Below, piece by piece: positions 1,780 through 24,282 of a stretch of DNA of 53,902 nt. The first letter of the stretch is position 1. Each line of letters opens with the position of its first letter. A program made the position numbers and the translations under genes. This DNA is from Microcystis aeruginosa Ma_SC_T_19800800_S464 (GTDB taxonomy: Bacteria > Cyanobacteriota > Cyanobacteriia > Cyanobacteriales > Microcystaceae). The notes beneath the pieces were generated by a model. The model was not told the DNA's origin, ran no database searches, and was given only the letters and a program-made list of their open reading frames with translations. The stretch lies in NCBI GenBank assembly GCA_007095785.1, contig SFBL01000061.1, positions 1 through 53,902 of the forward strand, in the 5' to 3' direction.

Positions 1780-4700
1780 ATGAATAGCCCCTTTCTCGAC
1801 TACCTCAACGGTCCCAAGCATCCCGTCCTCGTCTTTGATGGGGCGATGGGAACTTCCCTACAAAGCCAAAATCTGACGGCCGAGGACTTTGGTGGGGCAG
1901 AATACGAAGGTTGTAACGAGTATCTTGTCCATACTAAACCTAGCGCCGTAGCCAAAGTCCACGAAGCCTTTTTAGCCGTGGGTGCGGATGTGATTGAAAC
2001 CGACACCTTCGGGGGAACCTCGATAGTTTTAGCCGAGTACGATTTAGCCGATCAAGCCTATTATCTCAACAAAAGCGCCGCCGAACTGGCCAAAGCTTGC
2101 GCTAATAAATACTCTACCCCCGAAAAACCCCGTTTTGTGGCGGGTTCCATGGGGCCGGGGACAAAACTGCCCACTTTGGGTCATATTGACTTTGATACAC
2201 TCAAAAATGCCTATGTGGAACAGGTAGAGGGCCTGTACGATGGCGGGGCAGATTTATTATTAGTAGAAACCTGTCAGGATGTCCTGCAAATTAAAGCGGC
2301 TTTAAATGCTATTGAAGAAGTATTTCAGAAAAAAGGTCAACGATTGCCCCTCATGGTTTCGGTGACGATGGAAACCATGGGAACGATGTTAGTAGGAACG
2401 GAAATTAACGCCGTTGTCTCTATTTTACAACCCTATAAAATTGATATTTTGGGACTTAACTGCGCCACTGGTCCCGATTTAATGAAACCCCATATTAAAT
2501 ATCTCTCGGAAAATTCCCCTTTTATTGTTTCTTGTATTCCTAACGCTGGTTTACCAGAAAATGTCGGCGGTCAAGCCCATTATCGCCTCACTCCCGTAGA
2601 ATTAAAAATGGCTTTAATGCACTTTATTGAAGATTTGGGAGTACAAATTATCGGTGGTTGTTGTGGTACTCGTCCCGACCATATTCAAGCTTTAGCGGAA
2701 CTAAGTCAGGGTTTAACTCCGAAATCTCGTCATTATCATTATGAACCCTCCGCCGCTTCTATCTACAGTACCCAACCCTATATTCAAGATAATTCTTTTC
2801 TCATTGTCGGGGAAAAATTAAACGCTAGTGGTTCTAAAAAATGTCGGGAACTGCTCAATGTTGAAGACTGGGATAGTTTAGTATCGATGGCGAAAGCGCA
2901 GGTAAAAGAAGGGGCGCATATTCTCGATGTCAACGTCGATTATGTGGGTCGGGATGGGGTGCGCGATATGCACCAATTAGCCTCTCGTTTAGTTAATAAT
3001 GTCACCCTACCTTTAATGTTAGATTCCACCGAATGGGAAAAAATGGAAGCGGGGTTAAAAGTAGCGGGGGGTAAATGTATCCTCAACTCTACTAACTACG
3101 AAGACGGCGAACCGCGTTTTTATCAAGTCTTGGATTTAGCGAAAAAATACGGCGCGGGGGTAGTAATTGGAACCATTGATGAAGAAGGAATGGGCCGCAC
3201 TGCCGAGAAAAAATTCCAAATAGCTAAACGGGCCTATTATGGGGCGATAGAATACGGAATTCCTCCCTACGAAATCTTTTTTGATCCCCTAGCTTTACCG
3301 ATTTCTACCGGTATCGAAGAAGACAGAGAAAATGGCAAGGCTACCATCGAAGCAATGCGCCGAATTCGCCAAGAATTGCCCGAATGTCATATTCTTTTAG
3401 GTGTGTCTAATATCTCTTTTGGGTTGAATCCGGCAGCGCGTCAGGTATTAAATTCCGTCTTCCTTCACGAAGCGATGCAGGTGGGGATGGATGGGGCAAT
3501 TGTCAGTGCTAATAAGATTCTTCCTCTGGCAAAAATTGAACCAGAATATCAGCAAATTTGTCGGGATTTAATCTATGATAATCGTCGTTTTGATGGCGAT
3601 ATATGTGTCTATGATCCCCTAACCAAATTAACCGAATTATTTGCGGGTAAAACTACTAAAAAAGACCCCTCTAGTAATGCTAATTTACCCGTGGAGGAAC
3701 GCTTAAAACAGCATATTATTGATGGGGAAAGATTGGGACTGGAAGAGGCTTTAAAGCAAGCTTTACAGGACTATCCACCCCTAGATATTATTAATATTTT
3801 TCTCCTGGATGGGATGAAGGTAGTGGGTGAGTTATTTGGTTCGGGACAAATGCAGTTACCTTTTGTTCTCCAATCGGCCCAAACTATGAAAGCAGCCGTG
3901 GCTTTTTTAGAACCCTTTATGGAGAAAAAAGAGGGGGATAATAATGCCAAAGGTACTTTTATTATCGCAACGGTTAAAGGGGATGTTCACGATATTGGTA
4001 AAAATTTAGTTGATATTATCTTGACCAATAACGGCTATAAGGTGATTAATTTAGGCATTAAACAACCGGTAGAAAATATCATCGAAGCCTACAAAGAACA
4101 TAAGGCCGATTGTATCGCTATGAGCGGTTTATTGGTGAAATCGACGGCTTTTATGAAGGAAAATCTAGAGGTTTTTAACGAAAAAGGAATCACCGTTCCT
4201 GTTATACTTGGCGGGGCAGCTTTAACTCCCAAATTTGTCCATGATGACTGTCAAAAAACCTACAAGGGACAGGTTATCTATGGTAAAGATGCCTTCTCTG
4301 ACCTGCATTTTATGGATAAATTAATGCCCGCTAAAGCTGGGGGTCAATGGGATGATAGTAAAGGCTTTTTAGCGGAGTTTGCCGAGGCAGAAAAAAACCC
4401 GGTTGTTGCGGAAGAATTAGAGGTTAATCCCGATACTATTTTTACCGATGGCAGCGTCAACCAAGAATTAGTTATTGATACCCGTCGTTCCGAAGCGGTG
4501 GCAGTTGATATTCCCCGACCAATACCGCCCTTCTGGGGTACTAAAATATTAACAGCAGCCGAAATTCCTATCGAGGAGGTTTTCTGGTATTTGGATCTAC
4601 AAGCTTTATTTGTCGGTCAATGGCAATTCCGCAAACCCAAAAGCCAATCGAAGCAAGAATACGACCAGTTTTTACAGGAAAAAGTTCATCCAATTCTAGC

Positions 4701-5343
4701 AGCATGGAAAGAGAAAATTGTCAAGGAAAATTTACTAAACCCCACATTAATTTATGGTTATTTTCCCTGTCAATCCTCTGGCAATTCCCTGTTAATTTAC
4801 GATCCCGAATCGATACAAGCAGGCGAAAAACCCGAAAATCTGCAACCGATCGCCATTTTTGAGTTTCCTCGCCAGAAATCTGGTCGTCGTCTTTGTATTG
4901 CTGACTTTTTCGCTCCGCAGGAATCCGGTATCATCGACGTTTTCCCGATGCAAGCGGTGACAGTGGGGGAAATCGCCACGGAATACGCTAAATCTCTCTT
5001 TGATGCCAACGAATATACCGAATACCTCTATTATCACGGCATGGCTGTGCAAACCGCCGAAGCCATGGCCGAATGGACCCACACCCGCATCCGTCGCGAG
5101 TTAGGTTTCGCAGAGTTCGATCCTGATAATATCCGCGATATACTGCAACAGCGTTACCGGGGTTCTCGCTATAGTTTCGGTTATCCCGCTTGTCCCAATA
5201 TTCAGGATCAATACAAGCAACTAGATCTGTTAGGATGCGATCGCATTGGGATGTATATGGACGAAAGCGAACAATTGTACCCAGAACAATCCACCACCGC
5301 CATTATTACCTATCATCCCACCGCTAAATACTTTAGTACCTAA
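1780..5343 (+). CDS. metH: Cobalamin-dependent methionine synthase
   Basis: The product has 1187 residues, the usual MetH length, with all four modules in order. The N-terminal homocysteine-binding barrel carries the zinc ligands Cys228 (NCATGPD) and Cys294-Cys295 ([10 protein letters not shown]). A pterin-type methyltetrahydrofolate domain follows (about 340-620, with [10 protein letters not shown]). The cobalamin-binding domain has the DxHxxG signature DVHDIGKN at 735-742, with His737 as lower axial ligand. The C-terminal AdoMet reactivation domain contains [10 protein letters not shown]. It transfers a methyl group from 5-methyl-THF to homocysteine through methylcobalamin in the cytoplasm. 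No cobalamin riboswitch was seen in the 117-base leader. Immediately after the stop codon begins a large heptamer repeat array. Confidence 0.97.
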
Positions 5344-5355
5344 TCAGTGACCAGT

Positions 5356-5594
5356 GATCAGTTATCAGTAATCAGTTATCAGTTATCAGTTATCAGTTAT
5401 CAGTTATCAGTTATCAGTTATCAGTTATCAGTTATCAGTTATCAGTTATCAGTTATCAGTTATCAGTTATCAGTTATCAGTAATCAGTAATCAGTTATCA
5501 GTTATCAGTTATCAGTTATCAGTTATCAGTTATCAGTTATCAGTTATCAGTTATCAGTTATCAGTTATCAGTTATCAGTTATCAGTTATCAGTT
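5356..5594. repeat. Heptamer tandem array (AGTTATC)n
   Basis: The heptamer AGTTATC (equivalently TTATCAG) repeats about thirty-four times with almost no interruption; a few units read AGTAATC. The same heptamer occurs in short runs or on the opposite strand at about 1679-1706, 5691-5711, 14440-14465, 17215-17268 and 24758-24820. There are no spacers, so it is not a CRISPR array. The array lies between metH and a convergent outer-membrane-like gene and probably varies in copy number among strains by slippage. Confidence 0.95.
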
Positions 5595-5604
5595 AAGTAG
5601 TCGT

Positions 5605-5687
5605 GCAAAATTAATTTCCTAGTGAAGATAGGCAAAAGGCAAGAGGCAAGAGGCAAGAGGTGGTTAGATATGTGTAATTAATTTTGC
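5605..5687. mobile_element. Small MITE-like element inside the heptamer array
   Basis: Perfect 12-bp terminal inverted repeats (GCAAAATTAATT and AATTAATTTTGC) bound an 83-bp segment with an internal GCAAGAG-type tandem. Heptamer units resume directly after it, so it appears inserted into the array. No coding capacity. The transposase family is not identified. Confidence 0.5.
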
Positions 5688-5788
5688 TTAGGTTATCAGT
5701 TATCAGTTATCACTTCACTGAGAAAACTCCCTACACCCCACACCCCACACCCTACCCCCACCGAAAAACTTTTTGCCGCAGACCCTAA

Positions 5789-19360: not shown

Positions 19361-19687
19361 ATGAATTTACTAGGCATCGTTTTATACTCTTTTATGGGAG
19401 TGCTGTTCTTGGGGTTAGCTGTAGCTATCTGGTGGTTGGTCGATACCGTATCTTTATCCCCAACCAAACCGAAAAGAGCTACTTCTAAAAATAATCGTCA
19501 AAATTTGCCAATCAGTCAGCAGCAACTTTTCTACTTAGAAAGAGAACTTTTAACCCTCGTGAATGGAGATAAAGCTTTAGCGACTCGATTACTTTTAAGT
19601 ATTAGATTGAGAAATCCCCAACGCAGTAAAAGCTGGTGTTATGAAAAAGTGATTTATGATTTAAAACGAGATCGAGGAGGAATTTAA
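19361..19687 (+). CDS. Small single-pass membrane protein, unknown function
   Basis: 108 residues. The N-terminus is one transmembrane helix (LLGIVLYSFMGVLFLGLAVAI). A short basic linker (PKRATSKNNRQ) leads to a helical cytoplasmic domain ending LRNPQRSKSWCYEKVIYDLKRDRG. The last part resembles a motif found in several cyanobacterial hypotheticals, but I cannot name the family. The stop precedes the helicase remnant by one base, and the ribosome-binding site GAGGAGG for that next gene lies in its final codons, so the two were probably co-transcribed. Confidence 0.7.
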   Translation: MNLLGIVLYSFMGVLFLGLAVAIWWLVDTVSLSPTKPKRATSKNNRQNLPISQQQLFYLERELLTLVNGDKALATRLLLSIRLRNPQRSKSWCYEKVIYDLKRDRGGI

Positions 19688-19688
19688 A

Positions 19689-20197
19689 TTGCCACTACAA
19701 CAATTAGACTTATTAGAAGAATATCACAGGGATCACCATAATCTCATTGAAAAAAATTTATCTACCTTGTTTAGATTAGTACCCGATTGGTGCGTCAGGG
19801 AAAAAGAATCGATTGCTCTAGTTCCTTAGACAGCGATCGAGTTATGTTATTATCACAGTTATCTTCGGGAAATACTGACGCATTAGTAACAGTAAAATGT
19901 CTCGATGAGAGAGTTGATATAACACAAGTCAGTCGGGGAATTGTCCTCGCTGCTGACGCTTCTCCTCTTCAATTTATTCAACGTCGCAGCAAAATTATCC
20001 CAGCAGCTGGTGGCCAAGAAAAAAGCAACTTTAATCGATGTCTTTCCCCTTGGGGCGATAGTGAGGTAAAATTAATTGCATCGGAGATCAAAAGAGTTAT
20101 TGATTTTGCCTGGGCAGCCAGCAATCAAGCTACAGCTATTAACAGATTAGTCCAAGAATTAAGTTACTATGGCCTTACCTACTCAGATCTGTTATAA
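19689..20197 (+). pseudogene. Gutted SF2 helicase, Dnd-restriction type
   Basis: Two pieces of one protein are visible. From a TTG at 19689, with a strong GAGGAGG site upstream, 46 codons read LLEEYHRDHHNLIE..., like the N-terminus of helicases associated with Dnd phosphorothioation loci (TIGR04095 type, from memory). In another frame from about 19787, VTVKCLDERVDITQVSRGIVLAADAS and PLQFIQRRSKI match SF2 motifs V and VI (usual forms CLDEGVDIP and QRRGR). The whole core, with Walker A, DEAD/DEAH and motif III, is missing, and motif VI reads QRRSK. An internal deletion plus frameshift is the simplest reading. The 3' piece (136 codons) could still be translated from GTG 19790. Confidence 0.65.
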
Positions 20198-20277
20198 AAC
20201 TTCTTGTTATCAAGGTATCTCGTGTCAAATAAGCATTAAGACTAGATAATCTCCACTCCCCAACCTCCAGAAAATCC

Positions 20278-20445
20278 ATGGATATAACTGCTAAAATTAA
20301 AGAACTGGCACAAAAATATGAGATACCTCCCCAACTGCTAAAGGAAGCGATGGTTTTAGAAGTAGAAAAAATTACTCTCAAAAATCGGCAGCTATCAGCT
20401 AAAATTGTCAAACTTATCGAAAAATATACCGACTCCCCACAATAA
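20278..20445 (+). CDS. 55-residue helical protein in the Dnd-like cluster
   Basis: The product begins MDITAKIKELAQKYEIPPQL and continues as an almost uninterrupted charged helix to KLIEKYTDSPQ. It ends 9 bases before the DndD-like gene, on the same strand. I do not recognise the family. The early EIPPQLLKEAMVLE piece could be a small helix-turn-helix, and the rest a short coiled coil. Coding is supported by codon pattern and tight placement only. Confidence 0.6.
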   Translation: MDITAKIKELAQKYEIPPQLLKEAMVLEVEKITLKNRQLSAKIVKLIEKYTDSPQ

Positions 20446-20454
20446 ATAAACTCT

Positions 20455-22395
20455 ATGACTTTGAGACTAAAACAAATTCGCTTAACTAATTGGAAATGTT
20501 ATCCTAGTCAAAGGATTACTTTTAACCTGCATCCCGACAGAAAAATTCAGATTATCTTCGGGAATAATGGCTACGGTAAAACTTCTCTGATGACAGCGAT
20601 TTTATGGTGTCTCTATGGTGGAGATATTGTATCTAAAGAGACTCTAAAAACCTATTTTTATCGAGGTAAGGATGATTCTTCACCAGCAATAGAAATGCGG
20701 GTAGAGTTAAATTTTACTAAAAATGAAAAAAATTACTTTATCAGTCGCACAGCGAAATTAAACGTTAACGGTAGCACTTTTTATCCCAGCGTAGAGGAAG
20801 CATTATTTTATGAAGATGGAACTATGAGAAGTAACTCTAGGGAATATATCGAAGCATTGCTTCCTAAATCTATTCGAGATTTTTTCTGTTTTGATGGCTC
20901 AAAAATCGAACAATATGCCCAGATAACTCAAACTAAAGAAGCAAAAGAAGCAATTGAAAAAGTTTTGGGTATCCCGGAATTAAGAAATCTGCGCGATGAT
21001 ACAGAAAAAGCATTGCAAGAATTAGAAAAACGTTTAAATAAAGCAAAGGGAACCAGTCAAAATTTTAGAAATAAGATGCAAGAACTACGAGAATTAGAAG
21101 AAGAAATTGATCTCAAAAAAGATCAGCTTAAAAATGCCAAATGTCAGGAAGAAAATGCTATAATTATGCATCAGAATGCTCAAGAAAAAGCCGCTCAGAT
21201 TGAAAGTTTACGAGAAAAGTTAGAGGAAATTCATAACTTAGATAAAAAGCGTATCGGTTTACAAACTCAGTTAAATAACCAGCAAAATTCTATTAATTCT
21301 TGGTTAAAAAAAGCTTCGATACCTTTGCTGATTAACTTTGTGCAGGAAATGGTCGATGATTGGCAAGTTACTAGCTTAAAAAGCAATTCTAAAACTAATT
21401 CTACAGCAATTTTAAAAGCAATACTTGACGATGAAAGCTGTCTATGTGGTCGTTGTTTAGATAAAAATTCTCGTGACTTTATCCTTGAAAAAATTGCCGA
21501 ACTAGACTCCTTAGAAGTGGACAACATCACCAGAATAGAAAAAGACCAACTTAGAATTGATTTACAGGGAATTATCCGAGATAATGCCAAATTTAGCCAT
21601 TATAGTCAATTGCTTTTACAAAGAGATCGTTTAGAAGAAGAAATCGAAGAAATTAATCAACATATTAAACAGCTAAAACAGGAAACCACGGGAATAAATC
21701 AAGACTCGGTGAGGGAGATTTGGCGAAAAGTTGGCGAATCGGAACGAAAAGTTAAGGAGATTGAAGAAAAGATCGAACGCTTACAAAAGGAAATTGAAAC
21801 CCAAGAAAAACAGTTAGAAAATTTACGCAAAGAAGTGGAAATTTTAGCCAGTGAAAATCAAACCACATTGATGTTATCTAATCAGGTTAAAATGGCCAGA
21901 GGGTTAAAAAATGCCACTAACGAATTAATCGAATGGCATATCGATAATTCCCAAAAAATGATCAATCAAGTAACCAGCGATCGCTATTTACAAGTAACCA
22001 ACAAACCAGAGGAATATAGAGGAGTAGAAATTACTCCCGAATACACTTTAGGAATCCGTACCATCACGGGAAAATTATTAAATCCCGATGTCTTAAGTGC
22101 AGGAGAAAAGGAAGCTTTAGCCTTTGCTTTTATCACCGGTTTAAATCAAATAACCGATACTTGTGTCCCCCTAATTATGGATACACCTTTCGGACATTTA
22201 GACAAAGAACATCAAAAAAATATTATTAACTCTCTCCCTAATTTACACTCCCAAGTAATTATTCTAGCTACCGATCGAGATCTTCCCGATCCACTTTTAA
22301 ATCTGCTGCTTCCCTACACTACTGATATGTTCAAAATACACCGTTTGGCTGCCGATGAAGATGCTTCCGTGATTGAAGTGATGGAGAATTACTAA
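20455..22395 (+). CDS. DndD-like SMC/Rad50-type ATPase
   Basis: 646 residues. The Walker A loop GNNGYGKTS is at 36-44. FDGSKIE at 146-152 is a variant of the FDGEKI box characteristic of DndD. Two long coiled-coil arms (about 160-280 and 370-500) flank a zinc-hook-like Cys331-x2-Cys334 (with Cys329 as well). The ABC signature LSAGEKE is at 547-553, followed by Walker B (VPLIMDTPFGHLD) and a final H-loop-like ILATDRD. DndD is the ATPase of the DNA phosphorothioation machinery; DndA, B, C and E are not in this window. It overlaps the next gene by one base, so the pair is translationally coupled. Confidence 0.75.
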   Translation: MTLRLKQIRLTNWKCYPSQRITFNLHPDRKIQIIFGNNGYGKTSLMTAILWCLYGGDIVSKETLKTYFYRGKDDSSPAIEMRVELNFTKNEKNYFISRTAKLNVNGSTFYPSVEEALFYEDGTMRSNSREYIEALLPKSIRDFFCFDGSKIEQYAQITQTKEAKEAIEKVLGIPELRNLRDDTEKALQELEKRLNKAKGTSQNFRNKMQELRELEEEIDLKKDQLKNAKCQEENAIIMHQNAQEKAAQIESLREKLEEIHNLDKKRIGLQTQLNNQQNSINSWLKKASIPLLINFVQEMVDDWQVTSLKSNSKTNSTAILKAILDDESCLCGRCLDKNSRDFILEKIAELDSLEVDNITRIEKDQLRIDLQGIIRDNAKFSHYSQLLLQRDRLEEEIEEINQHIKQLKQETTGINQDSVREIWRKVGESERKVKEIEEKIERLQKEIETQEKQLENLRKEVEILASENQTTLMLSNQVKMARGLKNATNELIEWHIDNSQKMINQVTSDRYLQVTNKPEEYRGVEITPEYTLGIRTITGKLLNPDVLSAGEKEALAFAFITGLNQITDTCVPLIMDTPFGHLDKEHQKNIINSLPNLHSQVIILATDRDLPDPLLNLLLPYTTDMFKIHRLAADEDASVIEVMENY

Positions 22396-22802
22396 TGCAG
22401 ATAATCGATCCCAGTTTGAAGATTTATGCCTCGGAAACTTCCAGAAATTATCTACAGGTACTAAAAGATAATAAAACCTTTGAGCGCATGGTAGATGCCT
22501 ATTTATTCGCCGCTGCTTTTGCCATTAAACAAGACTTCAGTATCTACGGAATCAATCTGAGCAATCGACAAGATTTAATTAATATTAGCCAAATCGATCC
22601 AGAAGTTATTTTAGCTTTAACCGCAGGAATTTATATTATCTGTAAAAAGAATTCCTATCCTCAACCCAGTGACGGCAAAGAAGTTTTAGATAAGATCTGT
22701 CAATACGCAGAAGTGGGATTAAGGGAATTAAAAGAACGCTGGCAAGGCAAAGTCAGCAATCAAATCCAAGCTGATATTGAGAGAATTATCAATAATCTCT
22801 GA
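22395..22802 (+). CDS. Dnd system-associated protein 4-like
   Basis: 135 residues, starting at the last base of the DndD-like stop codon. The pattern FERMVDAYLFAAAFAI, then an acidic DPEVILALTAGIY helix and the terminal ICQYAEVGLRELKERW fits the small family I remember as Dnd system-associated protein 4 (TIGR04062), found beside dnd genes. The function is unknown. The one-base overlap with the ATPase argues for a physical partner. Placement depends on memory of a short family and is moderate. Confidence 0.6.
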   Translation: MQIIDPSLKIYASETSRNYLQVLKDNKTFERMVDAYLFAAAFAIKQDFSIYGINLSNRQDLINISQIDPEVILALTAGIYIICKKNSYPQPSDGKEVLDKICQYAEVGLRELKERWQGKVSNQIQADIERIINNL

Positions 22803-23889: not shown

Positions 23890-24282
23890 TTAGCAGTAAG
23901 CACCGATATCCTCTCCACATTCATCGGCAAGGTAAGAAAGAGCGCGAAATCTTAACATCATTAGATTTTCGTAGAGGGGATTTAGCTTGCAAAGGGGCGG
24001 AATCTCTAGAATTGTCCAGCTAAATAGGGTAATTTTCCGCGCAAAGGGACATTGAGCCGGAATTAGACGACAAATCCTGTGAGCTAGTGCGGGTGTATTA
24101 ATCTCTAGGCGATCAATTCGTTGCCGCAGGGGTTGCCATAAATCCCATTTTGGTTGCGGTGACGGGTTTTTCCGATTGCCTTTCGACCAAGGGGCGATCC
24201 AATTAGAGACAATTATTTTATTTGTGGTATAATCTGATACATCAGCATCGGCCATAGCTTTATCTTCAATTGATTGACTCAT
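23890..24282 (-). CDS. Mo-dependent nitrogenase C-terminal domain protein
   Basis: 130 residues. The region LRQRIDRLEINTPALAHRIC, then LIPAQCPFARKI and CKLNPLYENLMMLRFRALSYL, matches the Mo-nitro_C domain found as a stand-alone protein in cyanobacteria, including ones that do not fix nitrogen. The name comes from early sequence grouping and does not show a nitrogenase role. No nif gene is in the window. It is the first gene of a three-gene minus-strand set. Confidence 0.75.
   Translation of the reverse strand: MSQSIEDKAMADADVSDYTTNKIIVSNWIAPWSKGNRKNPSPQPKWDLWQPLRQRIDRLEINTPALAHRICRLIPAQCPFARKITLFSWTILEIPPLCKLNPLYENLMMLRFRALSYLADECGEDIGAYC

Follow-up and report, generated by a model that had tools for sequence, protein, structure and literature searches.

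Can a defence operon that has lost its nuclease-helicase gene persist as a working unit, or are the genes left behind on their way out? This question is raised by a locus in a stretch of 53,902 nucleotides from Microcystis aeruginosa Ma_SC_T_19800800_S464 (contig SFBL01000061.1; the whole stretch is called the window), in which an ATPase gene and two small genes lie beside the ruins of a helicase gene. An earlier note, made from the letters of the window, had described the locus as a reduced Dnd-like cluster without the modification core. We compared it with a set of 98 genomes of relatives, 12 of them Microcystis including the source genome itself (G000; 240 contigs, 98% complete). The probable account is that the locus is a pbeA-less PbeBCD module, derived from a PbeABCD cassette by a deletion shared by five genomes and kept by selection, with dndC, dndD and dndE elsewhere in the genome.

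The 646-residue ATPase is PbeC, a CxC-type cousin of DndD. It matched the PADLOC profile PDLC02726 (PbeC) with 1094.8 bits over residues 3-641, while the DndD model TIGR03185, aligned over nearly the full length, gave 196 bits, a distant homology that falls short of the curated 245.85-bit cut-off. Walker A (GNNGYGKT, residue 36), the FDGSKIE box (146), the LSAGEK signature (547) and LIMDTP (573) are all present. Of the DndD-like SMC ATPase proposed earlier, the SMC/ABC type with its FDGSKIE box thus stands, but the assignment to DndD gives way to PbeC; likewise, the hook had been described as CxxC but is CLCGRC, of CxC type (residues 329-334). This hook occurs in all 12 Microcystis genomes and is missing from the true DndD of the source genome. 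A place among generic Rad50/SMC proteins, which the earlier note had raised as an outcome that would tell against it, was rejected: the seven solved-structure matches were all Rad50 (best E = 6.4e-14), and the PbeC match was far stronger.

Upstream of pbeC lie the two ends of a pbeA gene (Table 1). The destroyed Dnd-type helicase reported there was borne out, as the remnant matched TIGR04095 only at positions 326-446 of 451, with 66 bits against a cut-off of 600 (intact sibling genes scored 359-361 bits, also under 600). The deletion removed the HKD nuclease together with most of the helicase, and the two remaining pieces sit in different frames. The one intact copy scanned, from G009, matched ResIII and Helicase_C over cut-off and PLDc_2 with 27.4 bits (cut-off 27), and has an HxK...D motif. 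Downstream, the 55-residue open reading frame (ORF) and the one-base overlap were found as described, the ATG of the 135-residue protein sharing a base with the stop of the ATPase. The order pbeA remnant-pbeB-pbeC-pbeD is that of the published PbeABCD cassette.

All 12 Microcystis genomes carry the module between identical flanks, rsmE on one side and genes for 83- and 259-residue proteins on the other, and each of the 12 has pbeB, pbeC and pbeD at full length with open frames. At this same chromosomal place pbeA is intact in four genomes (G007, G009, G010 and G011; open frames of 691 codons) and deleted in eight. Five of the 12, the window included, share one internal deletion with an identical junction; a larger deletion, which also removed the gene for a 108-residue neighbour, is common to three. 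The two forms were not scored as surely independent, as the larger may derive from the smaller.

We then compared the remnant with the genes downstream of it, in tests that treat sites as independent. Variable sites in the remnant numbered 19:23:26 at codon positions 1:2:3 (five deletion genomes, 353 gap-free columns), against 0:0:7 for the same stretch in the four intact genes (426 columns), and the remnant therefore drifts. For the same five deletion genomes, the counts were 81:68:157 in pbeC, 8:5:24 in pbeD and 5:3:10 in pbeB. The ratio of non-synonymous to synonymous substitution rates (dN/dS), pooled over pairs, was 0.334 for pbeC with pbeA and 0.375 without it, 0.330 and 0.168 for pbeD, and 0.451 in both groups for pbeB. 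Private substitutions in pbeC (non-synonymous:synonymous) numbered 20:14 in the four genomes with pbeA (dN/dS 0.362) and 108:77 in the eight without it (dN/dS 0.356; p = 3e-11 versus neutrality), with Fisher p = 1.0 between the groups; pbeC is constrained whether or not pbeA is present. In an alignment read by eye, about four distinct frame-shifting insertions or deletions fell in the 426-bp remnant and none broke the 2,508 bp of pbeBCD across the five deletion genomes (Poisson P of about 6e-11, assuming independent events). Insertions of 6, 7 and 73 bases were judged to lie outside the remnant and left out of the count. Judged from these patterns, selection keeps pbeC, for which the evidence is strong; support is weaker for pbeD, and for pbeB it is non-significant on private changes. 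The earlier proposal that selection acts on the ATPase and its partner but not on the helicase was thus upheld, more weakly for the partner.

The same configuration was found beyond Microcystis. Window-type PbeC was present in 20 of the 98 genomes, namely the 12 Microcystis (87-100% identity, the source genome counted) and eight others (41-50%), and in six of 388 genomes of a class-wide sample (E≤1e-60), which added two new holders (G213 and G306) and brought their number to 22. dndC scored over cut-off in 21 of these 22; the contig of the remaining one, G067, ends inside pbeC, and it was rejected as a case of PbeC without dndC. In nine of the ten non-Microcystis holders, the tenth being G067, dndC follows the pbe genes on the same strand, 0.8-4.8 kb downstream. 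In G213, pbeA, pbeB, pbeC and pbeD are followed on one strand by dndC, dndD and dndE, the gap from pbeD to dndC being 4.8 kb. pbeA is intact in nine holders (four Microcystis, G028, G036, G076, G067 and G213) and damaged with pbeBCD kept in 11 (eight Microcystis, G021, G026 and G306). The damage takes several forms: in G021 the match is limited to the last 35 codons; in G026 (L094:2500-4194) a gene of 565 codons upstream of open pbeBCD and dndC has lost the HKD part in frame and kept the helicase motifs ATGTGKT, DEVH and QRRGR; and in G306 (L137, reverse-complement 4401-5698) an insert of about 1.3 kb separates the nuclease part from the helicase part, and matches to pbeBCD and dndCDE follow downstream. 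Comparison of these genes suggests at least four separate losses of pbeA, in Microcystis, G021, G026 and G306. No intact pbeA beside a broken pbeC was seen among the 22 holders, G032 being ambiguous and the pbeC of G067 cut by the contig end.

Next we asked where the modification genes are. As stated earlier, dndB, dndC and dndE are absent from the window: whole-genome profile searches placed dndC on contig C222 only (668 bits) and dndE on contig C114 only (138 bits, beside a true dndD with 652 bits), all three over cut-off, and found dndB nowhere in the genome, window included. Because dndC, dndD and dndE are present elsewhere in the genome, the description of the locus as lacking the modification core falls, and the full dndBCDE set that the earlier note had named as telling against its reading is there but for dndB. 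Among the 12 Microcystis genomes, dndC scored over cut-off in 12, dndD in 11 and dndE in 11. The exception for dndD and dndE, G008, was rejected as a natural case without these genes, the sampled stretch being partly N (1001 of 3501 bases). In all 12, pbeC and dndC are on separate contigs or, within one record, over 1 Mb apart. A 2008 paper (PMC2442094) reported that cyanobacteria, M. aeruginosa PCC 7806 among them, have dnd genes other than an evident dndB, with dndC-D-E clustered; unlike that arrangement, dndC and dndD-dndE are on different contigs in the source genome. Just upstream of dndC on C222 (L015:8059-9003) lies a gene for a 314-residue HNH endonuclease (PF13391, 44.8 bits), by its position a candidate nuclease linked to phosphorothioate (PT) modification.

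The two small proteins fit the remaining places of the cassette. The 55-residue protein has the place and size of PbeB and matched PF20306 (Sp-DndD; E = 1.8e-4, 22 bits, under the cut-off of 27.2) and PADLOC PbeB (E = 0.0087); of three relatives scanned, two matched PF20306 below cut-off and one did not, and none of the three matched PADLOC PbeB. The 135-residue protein has the place and size of PbeD and travels with PbeC: relatives with 93-98% identity were found at seven named loci, all Microcystis, and relatives with 42-52% identity lie downstream of pbeC in nine of the ten non-Microcystis holders. Most of these genes overlap pbeC or follow it after a short gap; in G036 (L097) about 1.6 kb separates the two. 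The protein had no NCBIfam match at E≤0.1 and none in Pfam or PADLOC, and its earlier assignment to TIGR04062 was rejected, the TIGR04062 gene of the source genome (203 bits) being on contig C103.

How such a module might act is framed by two studies. According to Xiong et al. 2019 (PMC6459918), PbeABCD of the archaeon H. jeotgali A29 stops virus DNA replication without cutting, and its antiviral action required PT modification; strains deleted for pbeA retained low-level resistance, of less than one order of magnitude, whereas pbeB, pbeC and pbeD could not be dispensed with at all. Rakesh, Aravind and Krishnan 2024 (PMC10853773) describe PbeA as an HKD plus superfamily 2 (SF2) helicase protein, PbeC as a CxC ATPase, PbeD as a cognate of DndE and PbeB as a fast-evolving small protein, and argue that the system cleaves DNA. 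The action of PbeABCD is thus disputed, a replication block without cutting standing against HKD cleavage. The string "cyanobacteri" is absent from both main texts, and, among the titles and abstract openings listed by literature searches on PbeABCD, phosphorothioation and Microcystis Dnd or defence, none names a loss of pbeA in cyanobacteria.

The locus resembles the DndCDEA-PbeABCD system of H. jeotgali A29 in gene order, in having dnd genes in the genome and in its small proteins (66 and 152 residues there, 55 and 135 here). Unlike that system, it has lost most of pbeA, and its dnd genes are scattered and not adjacent. With the CxC ABC ATPase-DndE systems of PMC10853773 it shares the CxC hook of PbeC and, in intact siblings, a PbeA with PLD/HKD and SF2 helicase parts, whereas here the HKD-helicase is lost and kinship of the 135-residue protein with DndE is not confirmed. 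With canonical DndD (TIGR03185) and its DndE (TIGR03184) the resemblance is limited to the distant homology of the ATPase. The window thus corresponds in nature to the pbeA deletion made in the laboratory. Selected PbeBCD operons that naturally lack pbeA, alongside siblings that carry it at the matching place, make the disputed action testable and suggest a role for the ATPase complex that is separate from the nuclease.

We infer that PbeB, PbeC and PbeD form a complex that depends on PT and serves in defence. DndCDE, together with a housekeeping desulfurase, would mark self DNA with phosphorothioates; PbeC as an ATP-driven clamp and PbeD as a proposed DNA-binding partner would scan DNA, with PbeB regulating or coupling this activity. 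On unmarked incoming DNA the complex would clamp and hinder replication, giving a weak, nuclease-free defence without the risk of self-damage by the HKD nuclease. A broader reading, possible rather than probable in our judgement, is that the nuclease-free PbeBCD clamp is a self-sufficient, selected form of the family, and that cyanobacteria repeatedly drop the dangerous HKD nuclease-helicase while retaining an ATPase complex that, guided by PT, would stop unmarked DNA from replicating by holding it uncut.

Several observations weigh against a pbeA-less module kept by selection. PMC6459918 also states that antiviral activity cannot do without any of the four pbe genes. pbeC is broken in two holders, G019, in which pbeA is broken too, and G032, in which pbeA is not visible at the contig start. 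In the window the 3' piece of pbeA still reads as an open frame; there and in G003, two of the four frame-shifting changes cancel each other. Over all pairs, dN/dS of pbeC is 0.367, looser than the flanks (0.221 for rsmE, 0.085 and 0.117) and similar to the 0.383 of the 108-residue neighbour. Private changes are weak for pbeD (3:2 with pbeA; 9:8 without, p = 0.011) and non-significant for pbeB (1:0 and 4:4, p = 0.086). The gene trees of pbeC, pbeD and the flanks disagree, and recombination at the locus is active, so alleles may be refreshed from strains that bear pbeA; in the pbeC tree, seven of the eight pbeA-less alleles stand apart from the four pbeA-bearing ones (support 0.877), G002 being the exception. 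Homology of PbeD with DndE was not found: a single hhalign comparison of shallow profiles gave 0.8% probability (E = 0.072) over 23 columns, three scanned relatives of the 135-residue protein had no DndE match in Pfam or PADLOC, and no match of the DndE model (E≤1) across the 98 genomes lay at a pbe locus. The structure model of the 135-residue protein, built from eight near-identical sequences, reached a predicted local distance difference test (pLDDT) score of 52.

Among other explanations, PbeBCD might borrow its helicase in trans, either from a TIGR04095 protein on contig C228 or from parts of a second set (a 690-residue CxC ATPase on C114 and the TIGR04062 gene on C103); we consider this unlikely. 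The C228 protein is a helicase without a PLDc domain that scored over cut-off (665 bits) and matched the helicase half of PADLOC PbeA with 546 bits; its type exceeded the cut-off in all 12 Microcystis and in 75 of the 98 genomes, and in G026 a PbeA reduced to its helicase has persisted beside PbeBCD. However, this helicase occurs regardless of window-type PbeC (75 versus 20 genomes), and in several genomes, G054, G056 and G082 among them, its gene by coordinates adjoins that of a different DndD-like ATPase, which it probably serves. The second Dnd-associated set is scattered in the source genome (C114:15863-17935, C228:17294-18631 and C103:2000-2452; L004, L016 and L102), and its CxC ATPase on C114 matched PDLC02753 with 990.5 bits and has a CIC motif.

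Less credible still is a decaying island in which pbeA was lost first and pbeBCD drifts but happens to be unbroken. pbeA clearly decays, and the broken genes of G019 and G032 would fit such a course, but pbeC has the same private-change dN/dS in genomes without pbeA as in those with it, and the contrast in frame-shifting changes between remnant and pbeBCD runs the same way. Least of all do we credit the phosphorothioation-free, stand-alone DNA-sensing pair envisaged in the earlier note: dndCD lay within 10 kb of 42.1% (233) of 553 PbeAC in PMC6459918, and CxC systems occur also independently of DndD systems in PMC10853773, but the suggested survey for the unit without dndC yielded the truncated G067 as sole candidate, and the archaeal antiviral action depended on PT.

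Table 1. Parts of the pbeA-less locus and its neighbour; positions are those of the window, and the 108-residue ORF opens the interval 19361-22802 of the earlier note, whose coordinates and ORFs proved right.
Feature	Position	Strand	Basis
pbeA 5' remnant	19683..19748	+	about 22 codons; tblastn with intact 685-residue sibling PbeA: residues 1-22, 86%
pbeA 3' remnant	19775..20197	+	helicase C-lobe, residues 544-685 of 685
pbeB-like small protein, 55 residues	20278..20445	+	matches to PF20306 Sp-DndD (below cut-off) and PADLOC PbeB; open in 12/12 genomes
pbeC, CxC-type ABC ATPase, 646 residues	20455..22395	+	PDLC02726 PbeC 1094.8 bits; CLCGRC hook, Walker A, signature
pbeD-position small protein, 135 residues	22395..22802	+	no family match; relatives (42-52% identity) in 9/10 non-Microcystis holders; one-base overlap with pbeC
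Neighbour gene, 108 residues	19361..19687	+	overlaps old pbeA start; not counted in system

The 108-residue neighbour had no Pbe or Dnd family match in NCBIfam, Pfam and PADLOC profile searches. A promoter scan gave 13 sites, no excess over the shuffle mean of 11.5. Near these defence genes, at 23890-24282 of the window, lies a gene for a 130-residue protein that matched Mo-nitro_C (PF06967, 133.2 bits), a domain family whose name comes from nitrogenase.

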